Positions 45,559-61,795 of a stretch of DNA of 64,000 nucleotides are shown one piece after another (the first letter of the stretch is position 1; every line of letters begins with the position of its first letter). The translations under genes were made by a program, and so were the position numbers. Origin of the DNA: Bacillota bacterium (GTDB lineage: Bacteria > Actinomycetota > Aquicultoria > Aquicultorales > Aquicultoraceae); the NCBI GenBank assembly GCA_023511485.1, contig JAIMBH010000008.1, positions 1-64,000 of the forward strand. Reading direction: 5' to 3'. The notes beneath the pieces are model-generated. The model did no database searches and was not told the DNA's origin. It saw nothing but the letters and a program-made list of their open reading frames with translations.

Positions 45559-46440
45559 ATGAACGGAATCACCGGAAGAACCAAGGTAACCGGGATAATT
45601 GGATATCCGCTAACTTATACATTATCGCCTTTGATGCACAACAGGGCTTTCAATATATGTAGCCTGAACTACGTATATGTGCCGTTTGTGGTGGAGCAAA
45701 AGGACTTAAAAAATGCAATAGAGGGCTTAAAAGCTTTAAATATCAAGGGCGTAAACGTTACCATGCCACATAAAGAGGCCGTATTAAATATGCTGGATGG
45801 ATTATCGGAGCAAGCCAGGCTGATAGGTGCTGTAAACACCATAAACAACGAGGATGGGTACTTTATTGGGTACAACACCGATAGCGCAGGCTTTTTAAAT
45901 TCACTAATGGAAGAGGGGTTTGATCCCGCTAATAAAACTGCGATTATTATAGGTACAGGTGGTGCAGCAAAAGCTGTAGCGGTTGCCCTGGCGCAGGCCG
46001 GCGTTCGGGAGATCGCTGTAATCGGTAGGTCCGCCACGAAAGCCCAAGACGTAAAAACCCGCATAACTGATGCAAACAGGTACATTTTGGTAAAAACTCT
46101 TACTTTTGAAGAAAATCTGGCCGATATATTCAAAAAGGGAGAACTAATCGTAAATGCTACGCCTGTCGGCATGAAGGAAAGCGGAGGTCTCCTGCCGGTA
46201 CCTTTAAAGTACATAAATGCAGAGCATTTTATATACGACCTTATTTATACGCCACAAGAAACCGCACTAATAAAAGCAGCAAGAGATAAAGGAGCCCGCG
46301 CTATTAACGGGCTTGGCATGCTTGTTTACCAAGCGGCCGAAGCTTTTGAGATATGGACTGGTGTCTCCGCGCCGATTGATGAGATGCGTCAGGCGTTGAT
46401 TCATGGGCTAAAAAGCGGAGAACGGCCAGAAAATGTTTAA
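45559..46440 (+). CDS. aroE: Shikimate 5-dehydrogenase
   Basis: 293 residues from ATG 45559 (MNGITGRTKVTGIIGYP), seven bases after AAAAGGA; the open frame back to TTG 45514 adds an atypical leader. Substrate motif YTLSPLMHN, catalytic Lys in VTMPHKEAV and NTINN, NADP-binding IIGTGGAAKAVA and the C-terminal GLGMLVYQAAEAFEIWTG are all present. Reduces 3-dehydroshikimate to shikimate. Its end overlaps pilB by 8 bp. With aroC, aroK and aroB on the far side of the pilus genes, the aromatic pathway brackets the pilus locus. Confidence 0.95.
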   Translation: MNGITGRTKVTGIIGYPLTYTLSPLMHNRAFNICSLNYVYVPFVVEQKDLKNAIEGLKALNIKGVNVTMPHKEAVLNMLDGLSEQARLIGAVNTINNEDGYFIGYNTDSAGFLNSLMEEGFDPANKTAIIIGTGGAAKAVAVALAQAGVREIAVIGRSATKAQDVKTRITDANRYILVKTLTFEENLADIFKKGELIVNATPVGMKESGGLLPVPLKYINAEHFIYDLIYTPQETALIKAARDKGARAINGLGMLVYQAAEAFEIWTGVSAPIDEMRQALIHGLKSGERPENV

Positions 46441-49345
46441 GAGAAAGAACAAGAAAGACCCATTTAAATTTAATACTAACGATAGTTCATCTGAGGAATA
46501 TCTTAATAAAGAAGACGACCTTGAGGTTGTTATCAATACATACATCCCAGAAGATGGTGGCAAGGATGATGGCCAGAGCGTGTCTCAAGAAGCAGATGCT
46601 GGCGACAACGTCGTTCCTTTCCCAAACAATGACCAACCCATTGATAGCTCATATTTAGACGAATCTAGCTCACCGCTGGTTAATGTTGCCAGTATAGATA
46701 GCTACATAACCAAAACAGAGGAGCGCCATATTTTAGAGCAAGACGTCTTTAGCCCCAAGAGCGCCAGGCAAACTCCAGGTGAAGAACCGCAGAAAAAGAA
46801 AAGCTCTAAAGAAGATATTTATGAGGAAAAAGTAGCAAGAATGATAGCCAAGCAATTAAATATAGAATTTATCGATATTTGCTCATACAAGATTGATGAA
46901 AAAGCGGTATCGCTTATATCAAAGGAAGAGATTAGACATTATCACTTACTTCCGGTTGGATTTGAGGAAGGCCGTATAATTGCTGCAATATCCGGAAAAA
47001 CCAATATTGCAGCTATAAACGAGCTTAATATAGCGACCGGGCACTATGTTGTACCGGTTGTTACAACAGATAGCGCGCTTCAAAAAGCCATAAATAAGTA
47101 TGCAGGCGCCGGTAAGGAAGACGAGATTGAAGAAATAGGCTACGAACCAATAAGTACGGTACCGTTGAGTGAAGGCAAACTTCCAAGCGAGGCAGACGGT
47201 ATTGCGGCTAAAGATACAGCATTGGATGGCAAAGAAGAGTTAACAGTAAATGGCGAGGGTAATAAAGAACTTTGGATAGGGGCAGATAGGATAGATGAAA
47301 AATTTAATGTCAAGACGCCTTCACTTAAATTGGAAGAAGAAAAAGAGGAAACAAAGGAAGAAGCAGAAATAGTAGAAGCAGCAGATTCAGAAGCAGCAGC
47401 AGAAGAAGAAGAAGCGAAGATAGAACTAGAAACAGCAGAAAAAGATATCGACGTAATTATACCTGATAATGTACAGGATCCGATAAACGAGAGCGGGACA
47501 ACCAAAACTGAGGATCAAAAACACCCGCTACTAACATCAGACGAAAGTACCACGCAAGAGCTTCATAACATCATAGGAAACGATATACAATCGCTCATTA
47601 ATATAAGCAGTGAGGATATTCTCAGTCATGATCGAGCAGATGGGCAAAAAGCAGCTGCTGTTGAAGATATCAATAGCACAAAGGACCTAAGTATAAGTTT
47701 AGATAGTATAGATGAGGTTGTGCTTGTTGAAGACGTTGAGCTGGGTAAAGAAACCAAGAGCATGACCAAGAATGCAGATGCATTGGAGACGTTTGACCTA
47801 AATACAGTTTCTGAAGCCGATGTAGCAAGAAACGTAGCTAAACAGCTACATATCGATTTTGTCGATCTGGCAAGCTATGAGATTAATCCGCAAGCATTAT
47901 CACTTGTATCGAGCGAGCATATAGGGCGGTACAAGCTTTTACCTATAGATTTCATGGACAACAAGCTGGTTGTTGCAATGGCCGACCCGACTGATATTTT
48001 CACGATAGATGATCTGCGTGTTATGACAGGCTACGAGATTGTTCCTGTGGTTGCAGCAGAGAGTGAGCTTCTTACAGCGATAAGCAGGTATAGAACTGGT
48101 GATATCGCCGTCCAGAAAGCACTGGAAAATATAGATAGCGACTTTGACCAAAAGGCAGATCACTTAGAAATTGACGAAAACTCTGAGGACGCTCCGGTAG
48201 TAAAGCTGGTGACCTTGATAGTAACCGAAGCTTTCAGAGAAGGAGCCAGCGATATTTTTATCGAGCCTCAGGAGAAAGAAGTAAGGGTTAGGTACAGAAT
48301 AGACGGCGTGTTGCAGGAAGTTATGCGCTCACCAAAACATGTCCAAGCCAGCATTATCCAGAGGATCAAAATCATGTCGGGTCTAGACATTGCCGAACGC
48401 CGGTTGCCTCAGGACGGGCGTTTTGGGCTGGTAATCGACAAAAAGAATGTCGATTTCCGTGTAGCTACCTTACCTACTATACATGGAGAGCAAGTAGTGT
48501 TAAGGCTATTGGAGAAAGGCAGCAGCATGCCTGCACTTGATGATTTAGGATTCTTGCCCGACTCGCTTGAAAAGTTTAAAGCATCATTCAGCAAACCTTA
48601 TGGGGCTATACTTATCACCGGACCAACTGGAAGCGGTAAAACGACAACGCTCTATTCTGTCCTGAATATACTTAATGCAACAGAGAAGAATCTGATTACT
48701 GTTGAAGATCCGGTTGAATACAGGTTGCCAGGCATCAATCAGGTACAGGTAAACACAAGAGCGGGCTTGACTTTTGCAAGCGCGCTAAGATCGATCCTTC
48801 GCCACGACCCAGATATCATAATGATCGGTGAGATAAGAGATGAAGAGACGGCTACAATAGCTATCGAATCGGCTCTTACCGGCCACCTTGTCCTGTCCAC
48901 GCTTCACACAAACACCGCCCCTGCAACACTCACAAGGTTGATAGAGATGGGGATAGAGCCTTTTCTGGTGTCTTCTGCAGTTGATTGCATAGTAGCCCAG
49001 AGGCTTGCGCGAAAGCTTTGCACGAAATGCAAGGAATCTTACAAGCCTACAAAAGAGGAATTAAAAGAGGCGGGCTATAAAATCGATGGTTCCGAACCGG
49101 TGGAGCTATATAGGGCGCGGGGCTGCAAGTTCTGCGGAAACACTGGCTATCAAGGACGTATAGGAATTTACGAAGTCATGAGCGTATCCGAAAGTATAGA
49201 GAGGGTTTTGGTTGGCAAATTCACAGTTGAAGATATCAATAGAATCGCGATAAGCGAAGGGATGAGAACGTTGCGTGAGGATGGTCTAGAAAAAGTACGG
49301 TCTGGTCTTACCTCAATCGAAGAAATAGCAAGGGTTACAATGTAG
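46433..49345 (+). CDS. pilB: Type IV pilus assembly ATPase PilB with duplicated N-terminal domains
   Basis: 970 residues, about 400 longer than usual. A charged leader (1-125) precedes a T2SSE_N/MshEN-like domain (131-225), a Glu/Ala-rich acidic linker (about 290-350), more low-complexity sequence and a second T2SSE_N domain (460-557). The GspE/PilB ATPase follows (600-970) with Walker A GPTGSGKT (730-737), Asp and His boxes and a CxxC-x~29-CxxC zinc site. The protein powers pilus extension. MshEN domains bind c-di-GMP in some homologues; the RLG segment of the first half is missing in both copies, so binding is uncertain. Overlaps aroE by 8 bp and precedes a second PilB gene by 20 bp. Confidence 0.9.
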   Translation: MFKRKNKKDPFKFNTNDSSSEEYLNKEDDLEVVINTYIPEDGGKDDGQSVSQEADAGDNVVPFPNNDQPIDSSYLDESSSPLVNVASIDSYITKTEERHILEQDVFSPKSARQTPGEEPQKKKSSKEDIYEEKVARMIAKQLNIEFIDICSYKIDEKAVSLISKEEIRHYHLLPVGFEEGRIIAAISGKTNIAAINELNIATGHYVVPVVTTDSALQKAINKYAGAGKEDEIEEIGYEPISTVPLSEGKLPSEADGIAAKDTALDGKEELTVNGEGNKELWIGADRIDEKFNVKTPSLKLEEEKEETKEEAEIVEAADSEAAAEEEEAKIELETAEKDIDVIIPDNVQDPINESGTTKTEDQKHPLLTSDESTTQELHNIIGNDIQSLINISSEDILSHDRADGQKAAAVEDINSTKDLSISLDSIDEVVLVEDVELGKETKSMTKNADALETFDLNTVSEADVARNVAKQLHIDFVDLASYEINPQALSLVSSEHIGRYKLLPIDFMDNKLVVAMADPTDIFTIDDLRVMTGYEIVPVVAAESELLTAISRYRTGDIAVQKALENIDSDFDQKADHLEIDENSEDAPVVKLVTLIVTEAFREGASDIFIEPQEKEVRVRYRIDGVLQEVMRSPKHVQASIIQRIKIMSGLDIAERRLPQDGRFGLVIDKKNVDFRVATLPTIHGEQVVLRLLEKGSSMPALDDLGFLPDSLEKFKASFSKPYGAILITGPTGSGKTTTLYSVLNILNATEKNLITVEDPVEYRLPGINQVQVNTRAGLTFASALRSILRHDPDIIMIGEIRDEETATIAIESALTGHLVLSTLHTNTAPATLTRLIEMGIEPFLVSSAVDCIVAQRLARKLCTKCKESYKPTKEELKEAGYKIDGSEPVELYRARGCKFCGNTGYQGRIGIYEVMSVSESIERVLVGKFTVEDINRIAISEGMRTLREDGLEKVRSGLTSIEEIARVTM

Positions 49346-49365
49346 CCTAAACAGGGGTTAATTAT

Positions 49366-51039
49366 ATGATAACAGAGAAATCTGATCAGATAATGGCAGA
49401 ATTGCTTGTGAAGAAAGGGATAGTATCGCAAGATGACTTAGCTGTTATAGAATCCCGGGTAAATGGTGACATGTCTTTGATAGAGGCTTTGGTAAGCAGC
49501 GGCCTTGTTAGCTCATCAGCCATTAGTGAGCTCGTAGGAATTAAAGATTTTAGTATTGTCGACTTGAGCGAGTACAATATTAATCCTGAGGCGGTTTCCC
49601 TGTTGCCGGAGGCTTTTGCGAGGAGATACCAAGCGATACCTATAGATTTTGAGAACCAGAAACTGGTTGTTGCAATGGCAGACCCTATAAATGTGCTTAT
49701 ATCCGACGACCTTCATATGGTAACTGGCCGCGATATAAAAACCGTAGCCGCCCTCGAAAGCGAGATAGAGGCGGCTATCAACCATTACTATAAGGCAACT
49801 GAAGTAATCCAGGAGGAAATAAGCGGTCTTGACCCAGAAGATGGGCAGGCAGATTTGTCAAAAATACGGGCAGTTTCAGAAGAAGCTCCTGTAATAAAGC
49901 TGGTAAATACGCTTATCATCAAGGCGGTAAATGAAAGAGTTAGCGACATCCATATCGAGCCTCAAGAGAAAGACCTGCGCGTAAGATACAGGGTGGACGG
50001 CGTTCTCAAAGAGGTAATGCGATCACCTAAACATATCCAGGCGGGCATTATCTCGAGACTAAAAGTCATGGCCAACCTAGATATTGCCGAAACCAGAGTG
50101 CCGCAAGATGGACACTGCGACCTTAATGTTGCTGGAAATGTTGTTGATTTCCGTGTGGCGACGCTACCCACAATATATGGCGAAAGGGTCGTCCTAAGGA
50201 TATTAAGAAAAGAAAGCATCCTTCTAAACCTGGACGACCTTGGATTTTTGCCAGATAGTCTTTCGAAATTCAAATCCTCTTTTAATAAACCCTATGGCGC
50301 CGTATTGGTAACTGGACCTACAGGAAGCGGAAAATCAACAACGCTATACGCTGCTTTAAATATTCTAAACAGCAGCAATAAAAATATAATCACCGTGGAA
50401 GACCCGGTAGAGTACAGGTTGCCCGGCATCAATCAGGTGAACGTTAATACAAAGGCGGGTTTGACTTTTGCGAAGGTGCTCAAAGCGGTTCTTCGCGCAT
50501 CGCCAGATATTGTAATGGTGGGTGAGATAAGGGACAAAGAGACTGCTCAGATAGCGATAGAGGCAGCACTAACAGGCCACCTGGTCCTCTCCACGCTTCA
50601 CACCAACGATGCACCAAGCGCAATAAGCAGGCTCACAGAGATGGGCATTGCACCATTTTTGACATCATCTGCTCTTGAGTGTGTTCAAGCACAGCGTTTG
50701 GCCAGGCGTCTTTGCCCGGACTGTAAGGAGCCTTACGAGCCTTCCATTGAAGCGCTTCAGAGAATAGGTTTTCCGCTCCGGGACGGGGAAAAAATCACGC
50801 TCTATAAGGCAAATGGTTGCCCAAGATGCAACGGCACGGGCTATAAAGGCAGGATAGGAATATATGAAGTAATGCCTTTTAGTGAGGCGATTGAGGAACT
50901 ATGCGTAAAGAGGGCAACGGTTGAAGAAATCAAGCGTGTTGCAATTGTGGAAGGTATGAAAACCCTGAGACAAGATGGCTACGAAAAGGTAAAGCTCGGC
51001 ATCACGTCTCTTGAGGAGATAATGAGAGTCATTGTTTAG
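49366..51039 (+). CDS. pilB: Second PilB/GspE-type pilus ATPase
   Basis: 557 residues, the usual size. A complete MshEN domain occupies residues about 1-150 (AELLVKKGIVSQDDL, then YNINPEAVSLLPEAFARRY). The ATPase has Walker A GPTGSGKST and DPVEYRLPGINQVNV, and the tetracysteine site CPDC ... CPRC. It closely resembles the C-terminal half of the preceding protein, so the pair arose by duplication. The two may form mixed hexamers or serve different pili. The conserved Arg of RLG in the c-di-GMP motif is not evident at the N-terminus. Confidence 0.92.
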   Translation: MITEKSDQIMAELLVKKGIVSQDDLAVIESRVNGDMSLIEALVSSGLVSSSAISELVGIKDFSIVDLSEYNINPEAVSLLPEAFARRYQAIPIDFENQKLVVAMADPINVLISDDLHMVTGRDIKTVAALESEIEAAINHYYKATEVIQEEISGLDPEDGQADLSKIRAVSEEAPVIKLVNTLIIKAVNERVSDIHIEPQEKDLRVRYRVDGVLKEVMRSPKHIQAGIISRLKVMANLDIAETRVPQDGHCDLNVAGNVVDFRVATLPTIYGERVVLRILRKESILLNLDDLGFLPDSLSKFKSSFNKPYGAVLVTGPTGSGKSTTLYAALNILNSSNKNIITVEDPVEYRLPGINQVNVNTKAGLTFAKVLKAVLRASPDIVMVGEIRDKETAQIAIEAALTGHLVLSTLHTNDAPSAISRLTEMGIAPFLTSSALECVQAQRLARRLCPDCKEPYEPSIEALQRIGFPLRDGEKITLYKANGCPRCNGTGYKGRIGIYEVMPFSEAIEELCVKRATVEEIKRVAIVEGMKTLRQDGYEKVKLGITSLEEIMRVIV

Positions 51040-51060
51040 TTTTCTATTTACGATTTCCAG

Positions 51061-51082: not shown

Positions 51083-51106
51083 ATCACCAACAGAGTTTAC
51101 AGGGCT

Positions 51107-51133
51107 TAAGCAATCCCACATCAATTCCGATAT
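51107..51133 (+). promoter_or_regulatory. Sigma-28/WhiG-like promoter of pilT-pilC
   Basis: TAAG (51107-51110), a 15-bp spacer, TCCGATAT (51126-51133). It matches the TAAA-N15-CCGATA pattern with one mismatch in the -35. Predicted start is near 51140, with a leader of about 34 nt including SD AGGAGG before TTG 51174. Confidence 0.55.
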
Positions 51134-51173: not shown

Positions 51174-52238
51174 TTGCTGGATATTAATGATTTGTTGATG
51201 CAGGTAATTGAGAAGGGAGCATCCGACCTTCACATAACAGTTGGATCGCCCCCAATGATTAGGCTACACGGTGACCTTGTTCCGCTTGATTATCCGAAGC
51301 TTACCCCTGAGGATACTAAAACGCTGTTATACAGCATTATGGATCAGGAGCACAAGGACAGGCTCGAGCAACAACTCGAGTGCGACTTTTCCTATGCGCT
51401 TACTGGCCACGCAAGGTTCAGGGTAAACGTGTTTTATCAGAGGGGAAACGTTGGGGCCGCTTTAAGGATAATTCCAATGCAAATAAGAACGTTAGAGGAA
51501 CTTGGGCTCCCTCAATCGCTTGAAATTCTGGCCAAGAAGCCAAGAGGTCTGATCCTAGTTACCGGCCCCACAGGTAGTGGTAAATCAACTACGCTTGCAT
51601 CGCTCATAAACATCATAAACGAAACGAAATCGCACCACATAATTACAATCGAGGATCCGATTGAGTTCATACACAATCATAAAAAATCACTAGTAAATCA
51701 GAGAGAAGTTGGCTCAGACACTAAATCCTTTGCAAACGCTTTAAAATATGTCCTTCGCCAAGACCCGGATGTAATTCTGGTGGGTGAGATGAGGGACTTG
51801 GAGACGATCTCGGCGGCCCTAACTGCAGCTGAGACAGGGCACCTGGTTTTTGCGACGCTTCACACACAAGACGCTCCGCAGACAATAGATAGGATTATTG
51901 ATGTATTCCCGCCGCACCAGCAGCAACAGGTAAGGATACAGCTTGCGGGCACACTCCAGGGTATTATCTGTCAGCAGCTTCTCCCAACAATTGATGGGAC
52001 AGGACGAGTTATTGCTTACGAGGTCATGCTGCCAACTCCGGGTATTCGCAATATGATTCGCGAAGGGAAAACTCACCAGCTATATAACGCGATACAAACA
52101 GGACAGAAAAACGGCATGATAACAATGGACCAGTGTCTCTCCGACCTCTATAGATACGGAAAGATATCGTTTGAGACGGCTGTTACTAAGGCAAGTGATC
52201 CAAATGAGATCAAGCAGCTTTTGGGCCGTACAGCCTAG
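51174..52238 (+). CDS. pilT: Twitching motility/retraction ATPase PilT
   Basis: 354 residues, standard length. It has the PilT N-terminal GASDLHITVGSPP, Walker A GPTGSGKST, the Asp box, the His box (HLVFATLHTQDAP) and the C-terminal AIRNLIREGK-like segment (PGIRNMIREGKTHQL) specific to PilT. It powers pilus retraction. TTG 51174 follows CAGGAGG. Presence of PilT with two PilBs supports a dynamic type IVa-like pilus, not a secretion-only system. Confidence 0.95.
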   Translation: MLDINDLLMQVIEKGASDLHITVGSPPMIRLHGDLVPLDYPKLTPEDTKTLLYSIMDQEHKDRLEQQLECDFSYALTGHARFRVNVFYQRGNVGAALRIIPMQIRTLEELGLPQSLEILAKKPRGLILVTGPTGSGKSTTLASLINIINETKSHHIITIEDPIEFIHNHKKSLVNQREVGSDTKSFANALKYVLRQDPDVILVGEMRDLETISAALTAAETGHLVFATLHTQDAPQTIDRIIDVFPPHQQQQVRIQLAGTLQGIICQQLLPTIDGTGRVIAYEVMLPTPGIRNMIREGKTHQLYNAIQTGQKNGMITMDQCLSDLYRYGKISFETAVTKASDPNEIKQLLGRTA

Positions 52239-52301: not shown

Positions 52302-53513
52302 ATGGCGACAACATTTGTATATAAGGTAAGAGACAATAAGGGGCAGTTAATAAATGGGCAGATAGAGGGCGATGGTATAACGATGGTTGCGACAAAGCTC
52401 CGTCAGATGGGCTATGTCGTAGTGGAGCTAAAAGAGAAAAGCCTTGCTCAAAAAGAAATAACACTGCCTTTTTCCAATAGAGTAAAAGCCAAGGATGTAA
52501 TAATCTTCAGCCGCCAGTTCGCTACTATGGTGAGCGCCGGCCTATCTCTTACCAGGTGTTTAGGTATCCTAGAGGAACAAACCGAGAGCAAGCCGCTAAA
52601 GAAGATAATCGCTGAGGTATTGCAAGACGTAGAGAGAGGAAAAGCCCTATCAGAAGCAATGGCAAAACATCCTTCCGCATTTCCGCCGATATACATTAAC
52701 ATGGTAAAAGCAGGCGAAGCCGGCGGTGTGCTCGATACCGTGCTACACCGGGTTGCCGAGCACTTTGAGAAAGAAGCATCGATCAAAGCGAAGATAAAAT
52801 CCGCGATGGCATACCCGACGGCAATGTTTGCCTTTTCGATCTTGATAACTATTGTTCTTATAACCTTTGTCGTGCCAGTCTTTGTAAACATGTTTGATAG
52901 CATGGGTGGTCAATTGCCGCTTCCAACAAAGATGCTCCTTTGGGCAAGTTCTTTTATCAGGAGTTTTTGGTTTATTATAATTCCTGCTCTTGTTGGTGCG
53001 GGCTATGGGTTTAAATACTATGCAAAAACGCCTGTCGGAAAGAGCAATCTCGATAGGATGAAGCTTAAGTTACCGGTGTTTGGCAGCCTTATAAGGAAGA
53101 TGGCGGTATCAAAGTTTACCCGAACATTAGGCACACTTATGGCAAGCGGTGTACCAATACTTCAAGCCCTGGATATCGTAGCAGATAGCTCAGGCAACAC
53201 TGTTATCGCTGGTGCAGTAAGAAACGCACGCGTAAGCATTAAAGAGGGCGAAACCATAGCAAAACCCTTATCGCAAGAAAAGGTCTTCCCTCCGATGGTT
53301 GTTCAGATGATATCGGTGGGTGAAGAGACAGGCGCACTCGACTCAATGCTTTCAAAAATTGCCGATTTTTATGACGACGAGGTATCAAGCATGGTCGATG
53401 CGTTAACATCTATTATTGAGCCGATGATGATTATGATGATGGGCGGCATCGTTGGCGGTATCATTATCAGTCTATACATGCCGATGTTCCAGGTAATTAA
53501 CCTTATTAAGTAG
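52302..53513 (+). CDS. pilC: Pilus inner-membrane platform protein PilC
   Basis: 403 residues. Two GspF domains of about 120 residues each (about 65-190 and 270-395) share the FSRQFATMVSAGLSL/KFTRTLGTLMASGVPI and GEAGGVLDTVL/GEETGALDSML motifs. Three membrane spans lie at about 168-192, 215-235 and 370-395. It anchors the motor ATPases and pilin assembly in the cytoplasmic membrane. It lies 63 bp after pilT without its own promoter-like site, so it is probably co-transcribed. Confidence 0.95.
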   Translation: MATTFVYKVRDNKGQLINGQIEGDGITMVATKLRQMGYVVVELKEKSLAQKEITLPFSNRVKAKDVIIFSRQFATMVSAGLSLTRCLGILEEQTESKPLKKIIAEVLQDVERGKALSEAMAKHPSAFPPIYINMVKAGEAGGVLDTVLHRVAEHFEKEASIKAKIKSAMAYPTAMFAFSILITIVLITFVVPVFVNMFDSMGGQLPLPTKMLLWASSFIRSFWFIIIPALVGAGYGFKYYAKTPVGKSNLDRMKLKLPVFGSLIRKMAVSKFTRTLGTLMASGVPILQALDIVADSSGNTVIAGAVRNARVSIKEGETIAKPLSQEKVFPPMVVQMISVGEETGALDSMLSKIADFYDDEVSSMVDALTSIIEPMMIMMMGGIVGGIIISLYMPMFQVINLIK

Positions 53514-53590: not shown

Positions 53591-53617
53591 TAAAGTATTT
53601 CCAGTAATTACCGATAC
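53591..53617 (+). promoter_or_regulatory. Sigma-28/WhiG-like promoter of the riboswitch-pilA unit
   Basis: TAAA (53591-53594), a 15-bp spacer, ACCGATAC (53610-53617). This is the closest match in the window to the sigma-28 consensus TAAA-N15-GCCGATAA (10 of 12 bases). The expected start (about 53624-53626) falls just before the riboswitch aptamer at 53631, as a functional promoter requires. Confidence 0.7.
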
Positions 53618-53630
53618 AAATAGTACAAAA

Positions 53631-53708
53631 AACGAAAGAGGCAAACCCATCGTGAGATGGGGACGCAAAGCCACGGGACTCTTCGAGTCGGCCGGGTTGC
53701 CGTTTTAG
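53631..53708 (+). ncRNA. Cyclic di-GMP-I riboswitch (GEMM-I) upstream of pilA
   Basis: The conserved cores GGCAAACCC (53640-53648) and GGACGCAAAGCC (53661-53672) are both present in the right order. Between them a hairpin CCCATC-GTGA-GATGGG carries a GNRA tetraloop. After them a second hairpin (GACTC-TTC-GAGTC) leads to GGCCGGGTTGCC, whose TTGCC closes P1 with GGCAA. This is the c-di-GMP-I architecture. Ligand specificity, c-di-GMP versus cGAMP (the GEMM-Ib variants), depends on one core base that I cannot place without an alignment. It controls the terminator at 53716. Confidence 0.88.
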
Positions 53709-53715
53709 ACGAGCT

Positions 53716-53774
53716 CCACTTTATCAGGCGCAGGCAAGTGGCTATATGCAAAAAAGACGCGCCTTTTCTTTTTG
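53716..53774 (+). terminator. Riboswitch expression platform: anti-terminator and terminator
   Basis: AGGCGC (53726-53731) can pair with GCGCCT (53759-53764), followed by TTTCTTTTTG, an intrinsic terminator. The alternative hairpin CCACTT (53716-53721) with AAGTGG (53736-53741) encloses AGGCGC in its loop and would prevent the terminator. The two states are mutually exclusive, as expected for a transcriptional switch. Whether ligand turns pilA on or off cannot be read from sequence. Confidence 0.75.
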
Positions 53775-53815: not shown

Positions 53816-54184
53816 GTGAGACATCTTAGAAATGACAAAGGCTTTACCTTAATCGAGTTAATGGTCGTAATCCTTATTATCGGCATCTTAGTTGCCATTG
53901 CTATTCCGGTGTTTAATACATCGAGGGATTCTGCCTATCAAAGGACCTGCCAAGCAAACTTAAGGACCATCGAGGGTGCTGCATCAACTTATAGGGCTGA
54001 TAATGGTGGTGTGCCTACAACAGTTGCCGCTCTGTCTCCAACCTATCTAAAGGCAGTACCTCAATGCCCAAAACCAAAGACCGATGGCACCAAAGCAGAC
54101 CCTTATACTATTGATTCATCAGGAACAGCTCATTGCCCAACCTGGGAGAATGATCCAACAAGGCCGCACGTGCTGGCACCGTAA
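53816..54184 (+). CDS. pilA: Major type IV pilin
   Basis: 122 residues. Class III prepilin signal MRHLRNDKG|FTLIE, with cleavage after Gly9, Phe+1 and Glu+5 (Glu14), then a hydrophobic helix to about residue 36. The globular domain is small with two cysteines (QCPKPK, HCPTWE), a probable disulphide. GTG 53816 has GGGAGGTG about ten bases upstream. It stands alone between a riboswitch and a strong terminator, so its output can be set separately from the assembly genes. The small DSSGTAHCPTW loop resembles actinobacterial and Thermus-type pilins. Confidence 0.93.
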   Translation: MRHLRNDKGFTLIELMVVILIIGILVAIAIPVFNTSRDSAYQRTCQANLRTIEGAASTYRADNGGVPTTVAALSPTYLKAVPQCPKPKTDGTKADPYTIDSSGTAHCPTWENDPTRPHVLAP

Positions 54185-54278: not shown

Positions 54279-54304
54279 TAAATTGTTAATTGTTTAACCG
54301 ATAC
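54279..54304 (+). promoter_or_regulatory. Sigma-28/WhiG-like promoter giving a leaderless pilD mRNA
   Basis: TAAA (54279-54282), a 14-bp spacer, ACCGATAC (54297-54304), identical in the -10 to the pilA promoter. RNA would start seven or so bases later, at 54311-54313, exactly at the pilD ATG (54313). There is no SD sequence in front of that ATG, consistent with a leaderless transcript. Confidence 0.6.
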
Positions 54305-54312: not shown

Positions 54313-55116
54313 ATGGAAACCATTCTTTCGATTGTAATTTTTATATTTGGTTTAGTTGTTGGTAGCTTTTTAAACGTATGTGCCTACCGGATACCAAAAG
54401 GTGAATCCATAGCTTACCCGCCTTCTCATTGTCCAACCTGCGGGTCGCAAATAAAGCCGTGGGATAACATACCGCTACTAAGCTATATTATCCTTCGAGG
54501 AAAGTGCAGGAGCTGTGGTCAAAAAATAAGCCTTAGATATCCAGTTGTTGAGCTTTTAACAGGTATTTTGTGGGTTAGCATATACTGGCAATATGGCGTA
54601 TCCAACCGGATGGTACTTGGGATATTTTTTGTGACCGTGCTGATTGTGCTCTCGGTTATCGATTTTAATATCCGTCTTATCCCGGACAAAATCCTTTTAC
54701 CATCTATGCTTGTAAGCTTTGCATTCTTGATTCTTTGCCCGCTCAAAATAGCATCTTTGCCAGTAATCGCTGGAATTAGGCCATTATGGGCTATAGCAGG
54801 ATTTTTTGCTGGCGGAGGCTCCCTGTACCTGATTGCCGCGCTTGCACCCCTCATATTTAAAAAACAGGCGATGGGCGGCGGCGATATCAAACTTGCAGCT
54901 TTTATGGGTCTTTACCTTGGTGGATACGTCTTTGTTGCGCTTTTCATAGGTTTTTTTCTTGGCGCATTAATTGGAATCGCTCTCATTGTGCTAGGAAAGA
55001 GAAGTATGCAGGATATGATCCCGTTTGGACCATTCCTCGCCGCAGGCGCGATTCTAACCATATTTTTCGGACCTCAGCTCTGGCATGGATATCTTTCGCT
55101 GGCAGGGCTGCAATAG
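54313..55116 (+). CDS. pilD: Prepilin peptidase/N-methyltransferase PilD
   Basis: 267 residues, integral membrane. The N-terminal half has the GSFLNVCAYRIPKGESIAYPPS motif and the zinc-type cysteines CPTC and CRSC of the methyltransferase domain. The aspartyl protease residues lie in VIDFNIRLIPD and GGGDIKLAA. Seven or eight hydrophobic segments span the membrane. It removes the prepilin leader and methylates the new N-terminus of PilA and the minor pilins below. No SD precedes ATG 54313. Confidence 0.94.
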   Translation: METILSIVIFIFGLVVGSFLNVCAYRIPKGESIAYPPSHCPTCGSQIKPWDNIPLLSYIILRGKCRSCGQKISLRYPVVELLTGILWVSIYWQYGVSNRMVLGIFFVTVLIVLSVIDFNIRLIPDKILLPSMLVSFAFLILCPLKIASLPVIAGIRPLWAIAGFFAGGGSLYLIAALAPLIFKKQAMGGGDIKLAAFMGLYLGGYVFVALFIGFFLGALIGIALIVLGKRSMQDMIPFGPFLAAGAILTIFFGPQLWHGYLSLAGLQ

Positions 55117-55160
55117 CCAGAATGGTCTAATGCCCGTACCTTAATGGCCCAATAGTCTAT

Positions 55161-55187
55161 CAAGAAACTCCCAGTATTTACCGATAC
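55161..55187 (+). promoter_or_regulatory. Sigma-28/WhiG-like promoter of the minor-pilin operon
   Basis: CAAG (55161-55164), a 15-bp spacer, ACCGATAC (55180-55187). The stretch from 55171 (CCAGTATTTACCGATACAAATAGTA) is nearly identical to that at 53601 before pilA, differing in one base. Predicted start near 55194; AAGGGG precedes ATG 55213. Confidence 0.6.
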
Positions 55188-55212: not shown

Positions 55213-56640
55213 ATGCCTGTTATCAGCCGCATGTTAGGAAAGCTGCGGGATGAGAGGGCTTTTGGCATTATAGAAGCACTAATAGCGATGACGATAATGT
55301 CGTTAGTGTTGATTGCGCTACTTGGGCTTTTGACCGTAAGTGTTAGGGCGGTGACAAGCAGCAAGCTCTCTACCTCGGCTACCCAATTGGCTAATGAGCT
55401 TATAGAGGAAATCAGATCTAGAGATTATGAACTCGTGGGCATAATAGGCCGTGATGCCAATGGTTCTATTCCGGCAGAGGAGTCGCGTACGGTTGGCGGC
55501 ATTACCTATACCATAAACTACGATGTTCTGTGGGTAGACGACCTAGCTGATGGCACCGGAGCGGATGATACTGATTCTGACGGATCCAAAGACTATAAGC
55601 AGGTCAATGTGACCATCCACTGGACTATAAACAATACGCCGCAGACTCTAAGTGTAGTCACGTATGTAAAGAGTAAGCAAAAGAAGACAGACCCGCCAAC
55701 TGTCAACTTTATTTTTGGAAATTATGGGGTTTTGGATGCTAATAAAATGCCGCCTGATGGTACAGTATTTGGCACGGATAACTCACCATATAAAGCTTGG
55801 TTTGATAGTGGCATTATACCCCTAAAAGCCGTTGGCACTGACCCGAACGGCGATCTTGTTACTATGCGTTTCTTTGTAGGGCTAAAGACGCCAAACGGTG
55901 GCTTTTATGATATAAACCCGACAAACCAGTTTGAGAATTTACCAATATGTTATTGGAATCCGCAAACTATCGATACCGATACAGGGGATTATCTCTGGGG
56001 GGAAGGTACGCACGAGGTAACGGTTGAAGTTTGGGATGCACACGGAAACAGGGATGCCAAAAGCATTTACTGGGTTATAGACCGATATCCTCCGCTGGCA
56101 CCAACAAATCTTGTTCTAGTGCCGCAAGATAGAGATAAGTTTATTTTAAATTGGGATCCTTCGTACGATGGTTTAGATAAAATCACACGCTACAAGATTT
56201 ATCGTAAAGGGCCAGGTCTAACCGGTAGTTTTGACCTGTTAACCGAATCAACCTTTACTGTAACCACTTTTACGGATGTGGGGTTGGCGGAATGGTCGAC
56301 CTATCAATATTATGTTGTGGCGGTAAGTCCTGGAGGTCGGACTTCACCTGATAGCAATATAGTTACCGGGATAACACAGTTTAACCTAACAAGTGAGATT
56401 GAGGGCAACAAAAAGAGCGTCGAGCTTGAGTGGAATAGAGTGCCGGCAGGTATTTTAGTAGATCGGATCGACGTGGTGCGAAATGGTACTGTACGTGCAA
56501 GTTTATCAGGTTCAGCTTATGAGTATACCGATAGCCTGCCGTCGGGTCACGCAACTTATCAGTACCAGATCAAGGCATACTATCAGGGCAATCTGGTGAA
56601 CCAGAGCATAGTAACGACGGTGACTACTAAACGGGGATGA
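55213..56640 (+). CDS. Pilus minor pilin-like protein (PilV type) with FN3 domain
   Basis: 475 residues. Class III prepilin-like N-terminus ERA|FGIIEALIAM, with Ala at -1 and Glu at +5, then a hydrophobic helix (residues about 18-45). The large exported part includes cadherin/Ig-like segments (about 150-290) and a fibronectin III domain (about 295-385), with a second beta domain after it. Such large minor pilins initiate assembly and may sit at the pilus tip as adhesins. First of three co-transcribed minor-pilin genes; it overlaps the next gene by 4 bp. Confidence 0.75.
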   Translation: MPVISRMLGKLRDERAFGIIEALIAMTIMSLVLIALLGLLTVSVRAVTSSKLSTSATQLANELIEEIRSRDYELVGIIGRDANGSIPAEESRTVGGITYTINYDVLWVDDLADGTGADDTDSDGSKDYKQVNVTIHWTINNTPQTLSVVTYVKSKQKKTDPPTVNFIFGNYGVLDANKMPPDGTVFGTDNSPYKAWFDSGIIPLKAVGTDPNGDLVTMRFFVGLKTPNGGFYDINPTNQFENLPICYWNPQTIDTDTGDYLWGEGTHEVTVEVWDAHGNRDAKSIYWVIDRYPPLAPTNLVLVPQDRDKFILNWDPSYDGLDKITRYKIYRKGPGLTGSFDLLTESTFTVTTFTDVGLAEWSTYQYYVVAVSPGGRTSPDSNIVTGITQFNLTSEIEGNKKSVELEWNRVPAGILVDRIDVVRNGTVRASLSGSAYEYTDSLPSGHATYQYQIKAYYQGNLVNQSIVTTVTTKRG

Positions 56641-57215
56641 GTATGTTTTATTTACTGGAGGCAAAAAGAGATGAAAACGGATTGTCGCTTGTTGAACTGG
56701 TCATCTATATGGCGATGCTTGCCGTAATAATTGGCGGTGCTTATGTGATATATGACGGAGCTGAGACCATCTACAGTTCCTCTGGTGGGCAGGCAGATGC
56801 GCAAAGAAGCGGCAGGCTGGCCCAGATGCTGATGACTAAAGACTTGCGGATGACCGAGAGTTTCATAACAGCGAATGACTATGAGGTCGATATTAGGGCT
56901 GACCTGGATGATGACAATATATGGGAAGAGGTAAAGTACTACGTAGAACAGGATGCAGCTGGGATCTATCGTCTATATAGACAGGAGGATGGCGGGAGTC
57001 CAAAAGAGTTGGCGTTCGGGGTCAGAAATGTGGCTTTAAGCCAACCGCTTTTTATCTACTACGACCAATACGGCATGGCCATGACGACCGACACGGCGTC
57101 GAGAAAGACCAAGACCTGCAAAATGGGCATTAACTTAATTATTGATACTGATACAAACAGGCCACCCGGTGCTTTTACGCTTTATACAAAGGCAACGCTT
57201 CGTAACAGTCAATAG
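56637..57215 (+). CDS. Minor pilin-like protein (PilW type)
   Basis: 192 residues. Prepilin motif NENG|LSLVELVIYMAML, with Gly-1 and Glu+5, followed by a hydrophobic helix and a soluble domain typical of PilW/PilJ-like minor pilins. Overlaps the preceding gene by 4 bp (translational coupling). Exact name uncertain; the call rests on position and the N-terminal motif. Confidence 0.75.
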   Translation: MSMFYLLEAKRDENGLSLVELVIYMAMLAVIIGGAYVIYDGAETIYSSSGGQADAQRSGRLAQMLMTKDLRMTESFITANDYEVDIRADLDDDNIWEEVKYYVEQDAAGIYRLYRQEDGGSPKELAFGVRNVALSQPLFIYYDQYGMAMTTDTASRKTKTCKMGINLIIDTDTNRPPGAFTLYTKATLRNSQ

Positions 57216-57223
57216 GGGTATAA

Positions 57224-58669
57224 ATGAGGGATTCTCTGTTTAAGGATGAAAAAGGAATAGCGATGGTTGTAGTGCTCGGGGTCATGCTAATCCTGACGAC
57301 GCTGGCGTTTGCAGCTGTGGCCATCTCTGAGAACGAGCTCGTTTCGTCATCGCATGATCGGGATTCTACAGAAGCGCTGCATATAGCAGAGGCGGGTGTT
57401 CAAAAGGCTCTCTGGCAACTTGAACAATTTGGCAACTCAATGAATCCTAAAACATTTACCATAACTGTCAATGGTGGTACTGCAGAGGTTAACGCAGTTC
57501 AAGACATGGGTCAGAATTGGTATTGGACAGTTGAATCGACTGGAACTTATGGGAATGCCCACAGGAAAATTAAAGTTACAGTATTTAATTTCTCGATGTG
57601 GAATATGAACATAGCTACAGGCAGCAATAAGTCCCTGGCATCAGGGGGCAACGGTATCCTCGGTACCGCATCGGTCGATGGTCCTTTTTATGTGCGCGGA
57701 AATGTTGAACTTTCCGGTAACTCAGCGATCACAGGAGGACCCCTGTTTATAAAAACTGGCTCGCTCGTGCTTTTAAATAACTCGGCTACGCTTGGTTTAC
57801 CCGGTAGTCCTATAAGTGCGTATATTGAGCCATCCGGAAACAATGGCGATATAGTCGATAAAGATGGATTGCGAATATTAGATAATCCAAACCAAAGCCA
57901 GGTCTTTTTGAGTCAGCTTTCAAACCAGTGCCCTGATATAGAGGTGCCGCCTATGGATTCAATGGAGAGCTATAGAAATATAGCGAAATCAGAATCAAGT
58001 GTGCCGCCGCTTCCCAGCACATACTATAGAGATACGTATGTATCGGTCGACCCAAATATTTCGGGCGGCTATAAAGTACTTGATGATGATGGAAGTGTGG
58101 CCATGGGGGATGTAGACCTCAGGCATACATATCATCTCGATAGCTCGGTCAGCAATTTTGGCAGTTCTACGTGCGGTATTGGATGGGATACCAGCGGGGG
58201 AAGCAAGAAACTGCATGTGATGGGCACTGTCTATGTTGATGGGAACCTGGTTATCGGAGATAGCAAAAATGACACGGTTGTATACGATGGGCGGGGCACC
58301 CTCATTGTTAACGGCAATATAACAATAAGAGGCAAGCTTATACCAGCAAGCGCAGGAGTAATGGATAGCGCACATGTTCTGGGCTTGGTTACTAATGAGG
58401 AGATTACAGCAGATGTTCAGCATTGCGGAGGTACAGGCAGAGATAACCCGGATATTGCTGGTGCGCTATTTGCCGCCAAAAAAGTAAGCCTCGTACAAAA
58501 CAATACAACCTTTGTAGGTAGTATGATCGCTGGCACTTTGAATTTTGCGTATGGTACCAATAACTGCCATCTATATACGGATGATAGTCTGCCTTCATTT
58601 CTTCCGCCATCTCTGCCTGGCAGCACGAAGTTTATGGCAATGACAGCTTCGTGGCGCGAAGCAAAATAA
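57224..58669 (+). CDS. PilX-like minor pilin with large beta-rich domain
   Basis: 481 residues. N-terminus DEKG|IAMVVVLGVMLILTTLAFAAVAISE matches PilX_N, a prepilin-like helix lacking the usual Glu+5. A following Asp/Ser-rich helix (TEALHIAEAGVQKALWQLE) is the PilX signature. The C-terminal 300 residues include repeating short beta strands (FYVRGNVELSGNSAI, VDGNLVIGDSKN, LIVNGNITIRG) suggestive of a right-handed beta-helix. Last gene of the minor-pilin operon; likely a tip or adhesion component. Confidence 0.75.
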   Translation: MRDSLFKDEKGIAMVVVLGVMLILTTLAFAAVAISENELVSSSHDRDSTEALHIAEAGVQKALWQLEQFGNSMNPKTFTITVNGGTAEVNAVQDMGQNWYWTVESTGTYGNAHRKIKVTVFNFSMWNMNIATGSNKSLASGGNGILGTASVDGPFYVRGNVELSGNSAITGGPLFIKTGSLVLLNNSATLGLPGSPISAYIEPSGNNGDIVDKDGLRILDNPNQSQVFLSQLSNQCPDIEVPPMDSMESYRNIAKSESSVPPLPSTYYRDTYVSVDPNISGGYKVLDDDGSVAMGDVDLRHTYHLDSSVSNFGSSTCGIGWDTSGGSKKLHVMGTVYVDGNLVIGDSKNDTVVYDGRGTLIVNGNITIRGKLIPASAGVMDSAHVLGLVTNEEITADVQHCGGTGRDNPDIAGALFAAKKVSLVQNNTTFVGSMIAGTLNFAYGTNNCHLYTDDSLPSFLPPSLPGSTKFMAMTASWREAK

Positions 58670-58681
58670 TCCCTAAAAAGC

Positions 58682-58708
58682 TAAAGTTCACGAGTCTTTA
58701 TCCGATGA
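58682..58708 (+). promoter_or_regulatory. Sigma-28/WhiG-like promoter of the pilMNO operon
   Basis: TAAA (58682-58685), a 15-bp spacer, TCCGATGA (58701-58708). Six of eight -10 bases match GCCGATAA and the -35 is exact. Predicted start is near 58715, just before the leader hairpin at 58720. Confidence 0.55.
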
Positions 58709-58719
58709 AAAATAAAAGT

Positions 58720-58811
58720 GCTGTAAAAACCGGTGAGGTTTGCAGCAGGCCCCGTCCCGAACGTAGATAAGGAAACAGTAAAACTTAAGGCTCAGATGTA
58801 GGAGGTAAGTT
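58720..58811 (+). promoter_or_regulatory. Structured 5' leader of pilM
   Basis: GCTG (58720-58723) with CAGC (58743-58746) and AAACC with GGTTT build a hairpin with a short asymmetric bulge and a GGTGA loop, followed by a GGCCCCGTCCCG stretch and GTAGATAAGGAAAC. The hairpin lacks a U-tract, so it is not a terminator. It resembles no riboswitch class that I can name (GEMM-I and GEMM-II cores are absent). SD TAGGAGGTAAG precedes TTG 58812. Confidence 0.4.
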
Positions 58812-59960
58812 TTGGGATTTTTAAACCTGGGCGGAGGGGCTGCCCCTGTTGGTTTGGATATTGGAAGTAGCACTTTTAGGATAGCTCAACTTAAGCCATC
58901 CTCAGGTAAACCAACCCTTATAAAATATGCAAGCCTTAAGGCTCCCCTTGGTTTGATCAACGAAGGCGAAGTCACCGATGTAACCGGAGTTTCCCAGGCA
59001 CTTTCCAATTTATGGCGCGAGCACAGGGTCGGTGAGAAAAAAGTAGTGGTCGGCTTGGCGAATCAGAAGGTAATCGTAAGGGTAATTGAGATGCCTTATA
59101 TGAGCGAAGCCGAGTTTAGAAGCGCTTTACAGTTTCAGGCAAACGATTATATCCCAATACCTATAGAGGAAGCGGTAGTTGATTTTCAGATTATATCTGA
59201 GCACGAAAACGATCAGGGCGAGCGCATGATGGATGTCCTGATTGTAGCCGTTCGAAAAGATATGGTTGAGAATGTGGTTGCTGCGGTTGAGGGGGCAGGT
59301 CTCAAGCCGGTAGTCATAGACGTATCGTCACTGGCTTTTGCGAGAAGTGTTATGAGCAACGGCTTTAAAGCTTTTTTGGAAGATACTGAAAACCCCAGTG
59401 CTACCGCGCTTATTAATGTGAGCTCGAATTTAACTGATATTGTCGTGGTTGAAGGCGATGCTCCGCGATTCACAAGAATAAGCAGCATCGGTGGAGATAC
59501 TTTCACCGAGGCTTTAATTGACCAGCTTGGGATATCTTACGAGGACGCGGAAGACCTAAAAATTGGCATTGGCCTACCAACACCTGAATGGGCTACAAAC
59601 GAAGAGGATGTTAAAATTCCCGATATTACACCTGATATGCAGCAGTATGTAGATATAGTACATAACATACTTGAGCAAGAGATGATAAAGTTTATTGCGG
59701 AAGTTAGAAGGTCACTGGATTATTACCTTGTCCAGGCTACAAGGGTTAAAAGCATAGATAAAATAATTGTTACTGGCGGTGGGGCTAAGCTGCGTAACTT
59801 TATGCATCATCTTAAGGATAACCTTCAGATAGAGGCTGTTATGGGCAGTCCGCTTCATAGCGTGCAACTAAGCAGCAAGCTGAAGAAAATGAATATAGAG
59901 GAAGAAGAACTTTCTATGGCCATTTGCCTTGGTTTAGCAATGAGAGGGATCGATAAATGA
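58812..59960 (+). CDS. pilM: Pilus assembly protein PilM
   Basis: 382 residues, actin-like fold (FtsA/PilM family). ATP-binding motifs are VGLDIGSSTFRIAQL at the start, an acidic phosphate-2 region ALINVSSN and IIVTGGGAKLRN near the end. It is cytosolic and recruits PilN to build the inner-membrane alignment complex. TTG 58812 overlaps nothing upstream; pilN begins inside its stop codon (4-bp overlap). Confidence 0.93.
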   Translation: MGFLNLGGGAAPVGLDIGSSTFRIAQLKPSSGKPTLIKYASLKAPLGLINEGEVTDVTGVSQALSNLWREHRVGEKKVVVGLANQKVIVRVIEMPYMSEAEFRSALQFQANDYIPIPIEEAVVDFQIISEHENDQGERMMDVLIVAVRKDMVENVVAAVEGAGLKPVVIDVSSLAFARSVMSNGFKAFLEDTENPSATALINVSSNLTDIVVVEGDAPRFTRISSIGGDTFTEALIDQLGISYEDAEDLKIGIGLPTPEWATNEEDVKIPDITPDMQQYVDIVHNILEQEMIKFIAEVRRSLDYYLVQATRVKSIDKIIVTGGGAKLRNFMHHLKDNLQIEAVMGSPLHSVQLSSKLKKMNIEEEELSMAICLGLAMRGIDK

Positions 59961-60550
59961 TAAAGATACACATAAATCTTCTTCCAAGGGACATTAAAGA
60001 TAAGCAAAAGACAGAAAAGTACGTGTTTCTGGCAATCTTTGGCATAGTTGTTTTTGCCGTTCTTCTAGGCGGTCTTTACGCTTATAACACATGGCGTATC
60101 AGAAATGCAGAAAACGAGGTTTCAATGCTGAAGCGGCAGACGGCAAAGATGGAGGCGGCTATCCAATCCCTAAAAGTATATGAGCAGAAGCTTAAAGAAG
60201 TGCAGGATAAAAAAGCTATATTAGATAAAGCTATAAGTGGGCAAATCGTATGGTCTAAAACACTTGAGGAGTTAATGGTAGTAACGCCAAGTGACGTTTC
60301 GCTTGTATCGCTAAGCGGCAATTCAGATGGAATAACCTTTAATGGCCAAGCTCTTGATATTAATGATAATCCTGATTTAGGGCACAAGCCGGTGGCTAAT
60401 TGGCTTACACAACTTGCGAAGATTCATCCTGAGCCGGAAGTATGGCTGACTTCGTCAGATAAACAGGCCAACGTAATTAACTTTGTAAGCACAGTAAAGT
60501 TCAAAAAAATGCCGATGCTTCCTGCCCCGTCCAATCCTTCCGGGAAGTGA
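59957..60550 (+). CDS. pilN: Pilus assembly protein PilN
   Basis: 197 residues. HINLLPRDIKDKQK at the N-terminus is the PilM-binding motif. One transmembrane helix (residues about 24-45) is followed by a coiled coil (about 48-85) and a ferredoxin-like periplasmic domain. Forms a complex with PilO. Overlaps pilM by 4 bp and lies 4 bp before pilO. Confidence 0.93.
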   Translation: MIKIHINLLPRDIKDKQKTEKYVFLAIFGIVVFAVLLGGLYAYNTWRIRNAENEVSMLKRQTAKMEAAIQSLKVYEQKLKEVQDKKAILDKAISGQIVWSKTLEELMVVTPSDVSLVSLSGNSDGITFNGQALDINDNPDLGHKPVANWLTQLAKIHPEPEVWLTSSDKQANVINFVSTVKFKKMPMLPAPSNPSGK

Positions 60551-60554
60551 TAGT

Positions 60555-61187
60555 ATGAACAGTGCAGTAGCTAAACGACAAATATTAATACTAGTTGCGG
60601 TACTGATTTTGATGCTGGTCGGATTTTATTTTCTGGCATGGCAGCCGCAAACCGGGAAGCTCGCAGATTTGGAAAATCAAAAGTTGGTAGAAGAGACAAA
60701 GATCAAAACGTCAAAAACGACCTTAGAAGTGCTTGAGCAGAAGAAAAAAGACGCAGCAAATGTCGAGGCAGAGCTGGTGAAGATTCAGGATAAAATGCCA
60801 ATCAGGGCTGAGCTACCAGATCTTATCACCCAGCTACAGGATATAGCCAATGATGCGGGTGTTAACCTTGTATCGGTAAAGCCCGGCCAGCTAACTTCAA
60901 AAGGTGAGTTCAGTGAATTGCAGATAAGCGTTTCCGTTGAGGGAAGTTATATCGCGCTTATCGATTTCCTGAAAAGAATAGAGAAGGCGCAGAGAATGCT
61001 AAAGACATCGACAATAGACATAAAAGTAAAGCAATATCCGGACCTTACGATGAATACAGGGTTGGTCGCTTTTACAATGGGAAGCGAAGAGACTTCGACC
61101 ACAGCGGCACCGGCAAAAAGCGCACAGGTGGGTTCGGGTGCGGCTGATCAAACAGTACGGGTCAGTCAGAGCATGACCAATAAATAA
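60555..61187 (+). CDS. pilO: Pilus assembly protein PilO
   Basis: 210 residues. One membrane helix (residues about 9-27), a long coiled coil (about 32-80) with LEQKKKDAANVEAEL, and a C-terminal ferredoxin-like domain (about 85-175, IALIDFLKRIEKAQRML). Partner of PilN. A Ser/Ala-rich tail follows. ATG 60555 is four bases after the pilN stop. Confidence 0.92.
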   Translation: MNSAVAKRQILILVAVLILMLVGFYFLAWQPQTGKLADLENQKLVEETKIKTSKTTLEVLEQKKKDAANVEAELVKIQDKMPIRAELPDLITQLQDIANDAGVNLVSVKPGQLTSKGEFSELQISVSVEGSYIALIDFLKRIEKAQRMLKTSTIDIKVKQYPDLTMNTGLVAFTMGSEETSTTAAPAKSAQVGSGAADQTVRVSQSMTNK

Positions 61188-61198
61188 TGGTGGTTGAA

Positions 61199-61795
61199 AT
61201 GGGTGCAAGAGCTAAAAAATCATCGTCTGGAAACATTAAGGAAATAATAAAAACACCAAAAGGAAAAGGGCTTGCCGCAGGTTTGGTGCTGGTTTTACTA
61301 ATTCTAGTCATAATGATGGTCATGACATTCGCATTTCCAGTTTCAAATAACAGCCCTGCGCCTACCTCAAATGACCTTACGGAAAAGAAAACGTCGCCCA
61401 GCACTGTCGCCAAGACAGAAAGCAGCCAGACAGTGACAAGTGATACTGCGGAAACTGACTTAGTGGTAGGTGCTGATTTATCAAATTATAATGACCCGTT
61501 TAAGCCATTGGATGTAGTGGTGACTACTGCGGCGGCTGTCGGGCAAAATAATACCGCGACAGCTACCAGCTCGAGCGAGAATTCTGTAGATGTGCTATCG
61601 CTGCAGAGCATCAATGACCAGGGCGGCGAAAAATATGCTACCGTGCTCTATGGAGGACAACAGTATGTTGTTAAAACAGGGGACCAAATCGATAGCTCGC
61701 CTTTTTATGTTGAGGATATTGGGACGAGTAACATAACGTTGATATATGGTGACTCAAGGCTTAGCTTACAGATTGGAGATACGATTGTAAAGTAA
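61199..61795 (+). CDS. PilP-like pilus protein
   Basis: 198 residues from ATG 61199 (another in-frame ATG at 61187 overlaps the pilO stop). A membrane helix (residues about 25-48) leads to a Ser/Thr-rich spacer and the motif YNDPFKPL. A C-terminal beta domain (about 130-198, ATVLYGGQQYVVKTGDQIDSS) resembles PilP/GspC HR domains, with IGTSNITLIYG and LQIGDTIVK. Last of the pilMNO operon. In Proteobacteria PilP ties PilNO to the PilQ secretin; no secretin is seen here, as expected for a single-membrane cell. Confidence 0.7.
   Translation: MGARAKKSSSGNIKEIIKTPKGKGLAAGLVLVLLILVIMMVMTFAFPVSNNSPAPTSNDLTEKKTSPSTVAKTESSQTVTSDTAETDLVVGADLSNYNDPFKPLDVVVTTAAAVGQNNTATATSSSENSVDVLSLQSINDQGGEKYATVLYGGQQYVVKTGDQIDSSPFYVEDIGTSNITLIYGDSRLSLQIGDTIVK

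Follow-up and report, generated by a model that had tools for sequence, protein, structure and literature searches.

The pilus cluster in the 64,000-nucleotide stretch of DNA analysed here (the window) raises the question of whether a single second messenger, c-di-GMP, acts on one locus at three levels: at initiation through WhiG-type promoters, at elongation through a riboswitch upstream of pilA, and at the motor through MshEN-type domains of the PilB ATPases. The original prediction proposed all three; our sequence analysis supports the first two and not the third. Second messengers usually reach a gene via a single sensor. Here, with a probability that we put at roughly 0.6, pilA would be transcribed from a WhiG promoter into an RNA with a c-di-GMP-I riboswitch leader, so that its transcript would pass two serial c-di-GMP sensors, an anti-sigma checkpoint and a riboswitch, both closing at high c-di-GMP. 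Such an arrangement poses a question of circuit design: why are there two sensors, which thresholds do they have, and do they provide a sharper switch or a guard against leak, for instance from FliA?

The pilus cluster, its promoters and their probable sigma factor

The cluster is flanked by aroE, which overlaps pilB1 by 8 nt, and aroC, and all its genes lie on the forward strand. It begins with two extension ATPases, PilB1 (46433..49345, 970 aa; PF00437 and PF05157, the latter twice) and PilB2 (49366..51039, 557 aa; Pfam, with a single PF05157 match), followed by the retraction ATPase PilT (51174..52238; PF00437, E 2.3e-52), the platform protein PilC (52302..53513; PF00482, E 7.3e-70), the major type IV pilin PilA (53816..54184, 122 aa; PF07963 N_methyl, E 2.7e-10) and the prepilin peptidase PilD (54313..55116; PF06750, PF01478). 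Three minor-pilin-like genes (55213-56640, 56637-57215 and 57224-58669) give N_methyl, fn3 and PilX_N/DUF7305 matches, and the pilMNO operon (58812..61795; PF11104, PF05137 slightly under the cut-off, and PF04350) contains an extra, fourth gene with no family match (61187-61795). The presence of PilB, PilT, PilC, PilD, PilM/N/O and N_methyl pilins in one cluster identifies it as a type IV pilus locus. Elsewhere in the window, a multihaem-cytochrome-like protein with Ig domains (12813-20281) adjoins Ni-hydrogenase and NuoF-like genes, and a HEPN-domain protein (528-938) is followed by a nucleotidyltransferase-like sequence reading ILFGSRAR, with which it possibly forms a HEPN/MNT pair.

Scanning with the consensus TAAA/GCCGATAA, and counting mismatches for each site, we found forward-strand WhiG-type promoters before pilA, pilT, pilD, the minor pilins and pilM, as had been predicted, and none in the locus before pilB1 or pilB2. 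The pilA promoter, of WhiG/sigma28 type (53591..53617, at most two mismatches), reads TAAA-N15-ACCGATAC; its TAAA box (53591-53594) is separated by 16 nt from CCGATA (53611-53616). The pilT promoter (51107..51133; TAAG/TTAAG ... TCCGATA) and that of the minor-pilin operon (55160..55187) have three mismatches, and those of pilD (54279..54304) and of the pilMNO operon (58682..58708) at most two. Each of these matches is weak by itself, because matches with three mismatches are common in 64 kb. The relatives, however, retain them: 11/11 genomes of the family, representing six genera, share identical pilA boxes (TAAAG...CCGATA) set exactly 16 nt apart, while the spacer sequence between them diverges. 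The pilT promoter is kept 36-64 nt upstream of the gene in 7/7 genomes and the pilM promoter 101-109 nt upstream in 6/6; the minor-pilin promoter, 27-29 nt upstream of the first gene, recurs in G007, G002 and G005 (four genomes in all), and the pilD promoter, about 10 nt upstream, in G006 and G007 (three to four genomes in all). Genome-wide we counted 66 copies of TAAA-N15-17-CCGATA, roughly half of them outside long ORFs, whereas the reversed control gave 29. Given this excess, the invariance before pilA and the recurrence before pilT, pilM, the minor pilins and pilD, we regard the promoters as solid. Single sites depart from the full consensus by two or three mismatches, and several by themselves give a P of about 0.1, so that one might take them for chance matches and suppose that pilA is read from a housekeeping promoter; conservation in 11/11 genomes at fixed spacing, and the 26/27 riboswitches with such a box against 1.3 expected (see below), strongly disfavour this reading and leave it next to no probability. 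We also observed TAAA-N17-CCGATA upstream of a gene for a Flp-like small pilin (L092; G000 C7:68074, minus strand), so the regulon may extend to a second type of pilus.

Absence of whiG or rsiG had been named as a finding that would speak against the prediction; both are present. The genome has two genes for sigma factors of the FliA/WhiG type. One, a factor of the WhiG clade encoded between xerC and rpsB, has S. venezuelae WhiG (6PFJ, E 5.8e-94) as its nearest solved structure and keeps the c-di-GMP-contacting K-G-R triad (PLVKYIAGRI). The other, FliA, is encoded separately, with PilZ-like genes as neighbours, and does not have the triad. RsiG is a protein of 101 aa (68.3 bits to PF22802) with a single motif, EERISFRRRVLHGKID, that fits E(X)3S(X)2R(X)3[Q/H](X)3D. 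A genome scan with a strict DNA pattern for this motif (Q only) gave three matches, none reading as RsiG; the gene was recovered by a consensus query that allowed H and was validated on PDB RsiG chains (E 3e-10) and PF22802. We infer that this RsiG binds c-di-GMP. At high c-di-GMP, WhiG would then be held by a pair of RsiG chains together with two molecules of c-di-GMP, and initiation would drop. The triad in WhiG, the single-motif RsiG and the conserved promoters together support sensing at initiation, as far as sequences can.

In Rubrobacter, WhiG and RsiG have been shown, or suggested, to control type IV pili as well as c-di-GMP enzymes (PMC8325347), in keeping with the putative WhiG control of pilus genes on which the prediction drew; the initiation level is therefore known biology in a new lineage. 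The Rubrobacter radiotolerans (RsiG)2-(c-di-GMP)2-WhiG complex resembles the present system in its single-motif RsiG and the K-G-R contacts of its WhiG, and there, too, WhiG promoters lie within the cluster for type IV pili and upstream of genes for c-di-GMP enzymes; it differs in that a riboswitch is unmentioned there, whereas pilA here has one downstream of its promoter (PMC8325347). Our riboswitch scan of two Rubrobacter pil loci (L207, L215) found none. The same 2021 study found single-motif RsiG in Rubrobacteria and Thermoleophilia (PMC8325347); the class of the present genome, judged by GC content and genome size, appears to be neither, which would extend RsiG to a further class. Among its 36 genomes, 33 encode RsiG and 34 a sigma factor of the FliA/WhiG type, many of them exactly one. 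In two WhiGs of the class (G029, G030) S-K replaces G-R, which counts against a double lock on pilA. RsiG has a single motif throughout the class except in G020, G023 (L143) and G024, where it has twin motifs (176-185 aa); both states therefore coexist in one class, which is useful for dating the duplication.

The consensus is common to sigma28 and WhiG (PMC8325347), and the encoded FliA, which would recognise it as well, likewise counts against a double lock. If FliA rather than WhiG read the promoters, initiation would track flagellar assembly (FlgM-like control) and the riboswitch alone would sense c-di-GMP. The separate FliA without the triad, next to PilZ-like genes, and a chemotaxis receptor gene among the predicted targets speak for this; but several relatives with the promoter-riboswitch pair have one such sigma factor only (a lone one is found, for example, in the riboswitch genomes G019, G024, G026-G028 and G030), and the Rubrobacter data link WhiG to pil promoters (PMC8325347). 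We consider control by FliA unlikely, and infer that WhiG reads the pil promoters.

The pilA leader

The GEMM-I riboswitch that had been predicted before pilA is indeed there: a c-di-GMP-I (GGC type) aptamer at 53631..53705 on the forward strand matches Rfam RF03167 with 70.7 bits (cut-off 59, E 9.8e-15) and is the sole copy in the 2.37-Mb genome. It starts 14 nt beyond the CCGATA box of the pilA promoter, which leaves room for a +1 directly before it. At the position of G20 in the Vc2 aptamer, c-di-GMP binders have G and cGAMP binders A, and the Geobacter cGAMP riboswitches have A. The base of the present aptamer that we take to be equivalent to Vc2 G20 is, in an alignment read by eye, a G (GAGGCAAACC); we thus rejected cGAMP as the ligand, and the aptamer probably binds c-di-GMP. 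A WhiG/RsiG layer is not known to us from Geobacter. The Geobacter GEMM-Ib riboswitches share with the present one the GEMM-I fold and the position before type IV pilus genes, but they sense cGAMP, and the pilM switch among them is ON (PMC9262584).

The aptamer is absent from two genomes of the same genus (G006, G007) and two more of the same family (G005, G009), all four of which retain the pilA promoter; in G006 and G007 the ribosome-binding site comes directly after the -10. The promoter is therefore not a riboswitch artefact. As judged from these genomes, the promoter is the constant part and the riboswitch a layer gained or lost, and the same-genus relatives, missing only the riboswitch, offer a natural control.

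About 20 nt after the aptamer begins an intrinsic terminator on the same strand (53726..53774, dG -11.7 kcal/mol), AGGCGC...GCGCCUUUUCUUUUU, in which AGGCGC pairs with GCGCCU and is followed by UUUCUUUUU; terminators lie at about the same place in the leaders L101, L102, L105, L106 and L113. A forward-strand antiterminator is predicted at 53669..53743, with AGCCAC (53669-53674) pairing with GUGGCU (53738-53743) and, in a second helix, UUGCC (53697-53701) with GGCAA (53733-53737). Folding of the nascent RNA gave a ligand-free minimum of -37.6 kcal/mol, against -30.2 with the aptamer enforced, and in this minimum the P3 strand of the aptamer is paired to the 5' half of the terminator, with the AGCCAC/GUGGCU helix included. 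The antiterminator match of the window leader is only 6 bp long and not significant alone (P 0.12-0.25), and the full-length ligand-free RNA divides between antiterminator (0.57) and terminator (0.30), both of which count against a double lock; folding the 213-nt leader to its MFE without constraints was uninformative (z -0.47). Elsewhere in the class, four unrelated leaders (L107/L117, L108, L111 and L110) have 9-bp matches between aptamer and terminator 5' arm (P <= 0.003), differing in sequence. The terminator lies after the aptamer without overlap, starting 13-36 nt beyond it in most leaders. Two leaders (L097, L099) look translational by eye, with a stem over the ribosome-binding site.

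From the non-overlapping terminator, the 9-bp matches and the nascent folding, we predict that the pilA riboswitch is an OFF switch. Once an RNA has been started, its aptamer would fold; bound to c-di-GMP it would retain its own helices, the terminator would form and the polymerase would stop before pilA, whereas without c-di-GMP the 5' arm of the terminator would pair with aptamer strands and transcription would go on. Riboswitch followed by terminator thus supports the predicted elongation level on sequence grounds, and an OFF switch would make both c-di-GMP layers act in one direction, a coherent double lock on pilA. The pilT, pilD, minor-pilin and pilMNO genes would be subject to the first lock only, and the pilB genes to neither.

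An ON switch would have a different consequence: with initiation blocked at high c-di-GMP and c-di-GMP needed for read-through, pilA would be made only at intermediate levels. Aptamers that are very similar can be ON or OFF switches (PMC9262584). In C. difficile all seven functional class-I switches are OFF, as predicted here for a class-I aptamer with a transcription terminator, but type IV pili there increase with c-di-GMP, pilA1 being under a class-II ON switch (PMC6366702); this opposite sign of the pilus response counts against the double lock. C. difficile differs further in that its class-I switch Cd1 controls a sigD-bearing operon and is not downstream of a promoter gated by c-di-GMP and an anti-sigma factor (PMC6366702). 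Against an ON switch, the overlap of aptamer and terminator seen in the Geobacter pilM type is absent, given the 13-36 nt between them in most leaders, and the alternative pairings that we found set aptamer strands against the terminator. We therefore hold production restricted to intermediate c-di-GMP to be doubtful, and retain the OFF switch as the preferred reading.

PilB motors and c-di-GMP enzymes

MshEN binds c-di-GMP via its N-terminal half, with a 24-residue motif, and a receptor domain has two RLGxx(L/V/I)2xxG(L/V/I)2xxxxLxxxLxxQ motifs separated by a 5-residue spacer (PMC5013675). The three MshEN-type domains that had been proposed do appear as Pfam matches (PF05157), two in PilB1 and one in PilB2, but the c-di-GMP-binding residues are missing. 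Both matches in PilB1 span the MshEN_C half only, and the RLGxx...Q motif is absent before either. In PilB2 the MshEN_N fold is present and residues 8-142 align with V. cholerae MshE (5HTL), with a degenerate motif, IMAELLVKKGIVSQDDLAVIESRV (IMAELLVKKG...) and SLIEALVSSGLVSSSAISELVGIK (SLIEALVSSG...), that retains roughly 2 of the 12 key residues; the RLGxx...LxxxLxxQ residues of MshE are lost, as they are in the non-binding XpsE/GspE (PMC5013675). We therefore rejected the motor level: judged by the published motif, the PilB motors would not be c-di-GMP sensors.

A phosphodiesterase within the regulon had also been proposed, namely a forward-strand HD-GYP gene (4767..6071; PF13487, E 2.6e-48) that lies about 40 kb away from the pil locus. 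For this gene the case is weak, since only a -10-like ACCGATAT (4751-4758), without a -35 at the right distance, precedes it, and its orthologue in G007 likewise retains the -10 only. Full-pattern WhiG-type promoters are, however, found elsewhere in the genome before two GGDEF genes (L053, and L072 with HDIGKIG, an HD-GYP signature) and before two PilZ-like genes (L058, L073). The WhiG regulon is therefore likely to feed back on c-di-GMP, as in Rubrobacter, though not via the named HD-GYP gene.

Promoter and riboswitch across the class and phylum

RF03167 matches occur in 22/36 genomes of the class and provide 27 usable riboswitch copies. YCGATA lies at most 100 nt upstream of 26 of these 27, against 1.3 expected from shuffles; most of the boxes lie 13-53 nt away from the aptamer and have a TAAA-like -35 element spaced 14-16 nt from them. 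In the rest of the phylum a -10 is found upstream of 30/62 c-di-GMP-I riboswitches (5.6 expected), where coupling is complete in three families (f22, f43 and f55) and others apparently rely on housekeeping promoters. RsiG is encoded in 143/152 genomes with the riboswitch and 103/244 without it, an odds ratio of 22, uncorrected for relatedness, over 396 genomes. On this evidence we find it probable, if well short of assured, that in deep-branching Actinomycetota c-di-GMP-I riboswitches as a rule sit in WhiG-promoter transcripts, where anti-sigma factor and aptamer would gate one RNA serially. If true, this would give the whole lineage a two-sensor module, serving pilins and secreted surface proteins, and its interest would exceed the locus, as promoter and riboswitch for one messenger travel together across a class. 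Our literature search returned no paper in which a riboswitch and WhiG or RsiG are linked at one locus, co-mentions being reviews or incidental; WhiG/RsiG control of pili having been published for Rubrobacter, the class-wide pairing is the part that looks new.

At least 16 of the 27 copies precede a type IV pilin gene, counting L100 by its near-identical leader since the contig ends. A massively expressed c-di-GMP riboswitch RNA, merRNA, has been proposed as a reservoir of c-di-GMP in Bdellovibrio (PMC3627812), and the pilA leader might by analogy be mainly a sink rather than a cis switch. We regard this as highly improbable, since terminator, ribosome-binding site and pilA come directly after the aptamer and 16/27 class copies precede pilA. 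The attack-phase FliA regulon of Bdellovibrio resembles the present promoters in that its surface, protease and chemotaxis genes carry TTAAG-N16-CCGATA, and merRNA is likewise a c-di-GMP riboswitch RNA, there an abundant one, but it has no listed FliA promoter and no downstream gene (PMC3627812). We checked merRNA as a precedent for the pilA leader and found it not to be the same.

The remaining copies of the class mostly stand before genes for secreted proteins, which by sequence reading are HExxH proteins, a subtilase, a CAP protein and an NlpC/P60-like protein. In L098, L104, L109 and L114 (as well as L097 and L099) the first ORF after the riboswitch encodes a small secreted protein with an HExxH-like motif, and four such riboswitch-linked proteins have a C-terminal domain in common (NNWQGCAYY...HE..HIIDWR). 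Among the targets of c-di-GMP riboswitches in C. difficile is the secreted metalloprotease Zmp1/PPEP-1, which these HExxH proteins recall. We also observed, 73 nt past the riboswitch in L110 and L123, a gene for a conserved protein of 61 aa (MSEE.KRGR.MC..INCEFLSASGFFCLKGVP) with no known family, whose leaders carry a WhiG-type promoter and an antiterminator match of 9 bp in L110 and 7 bp in L123.
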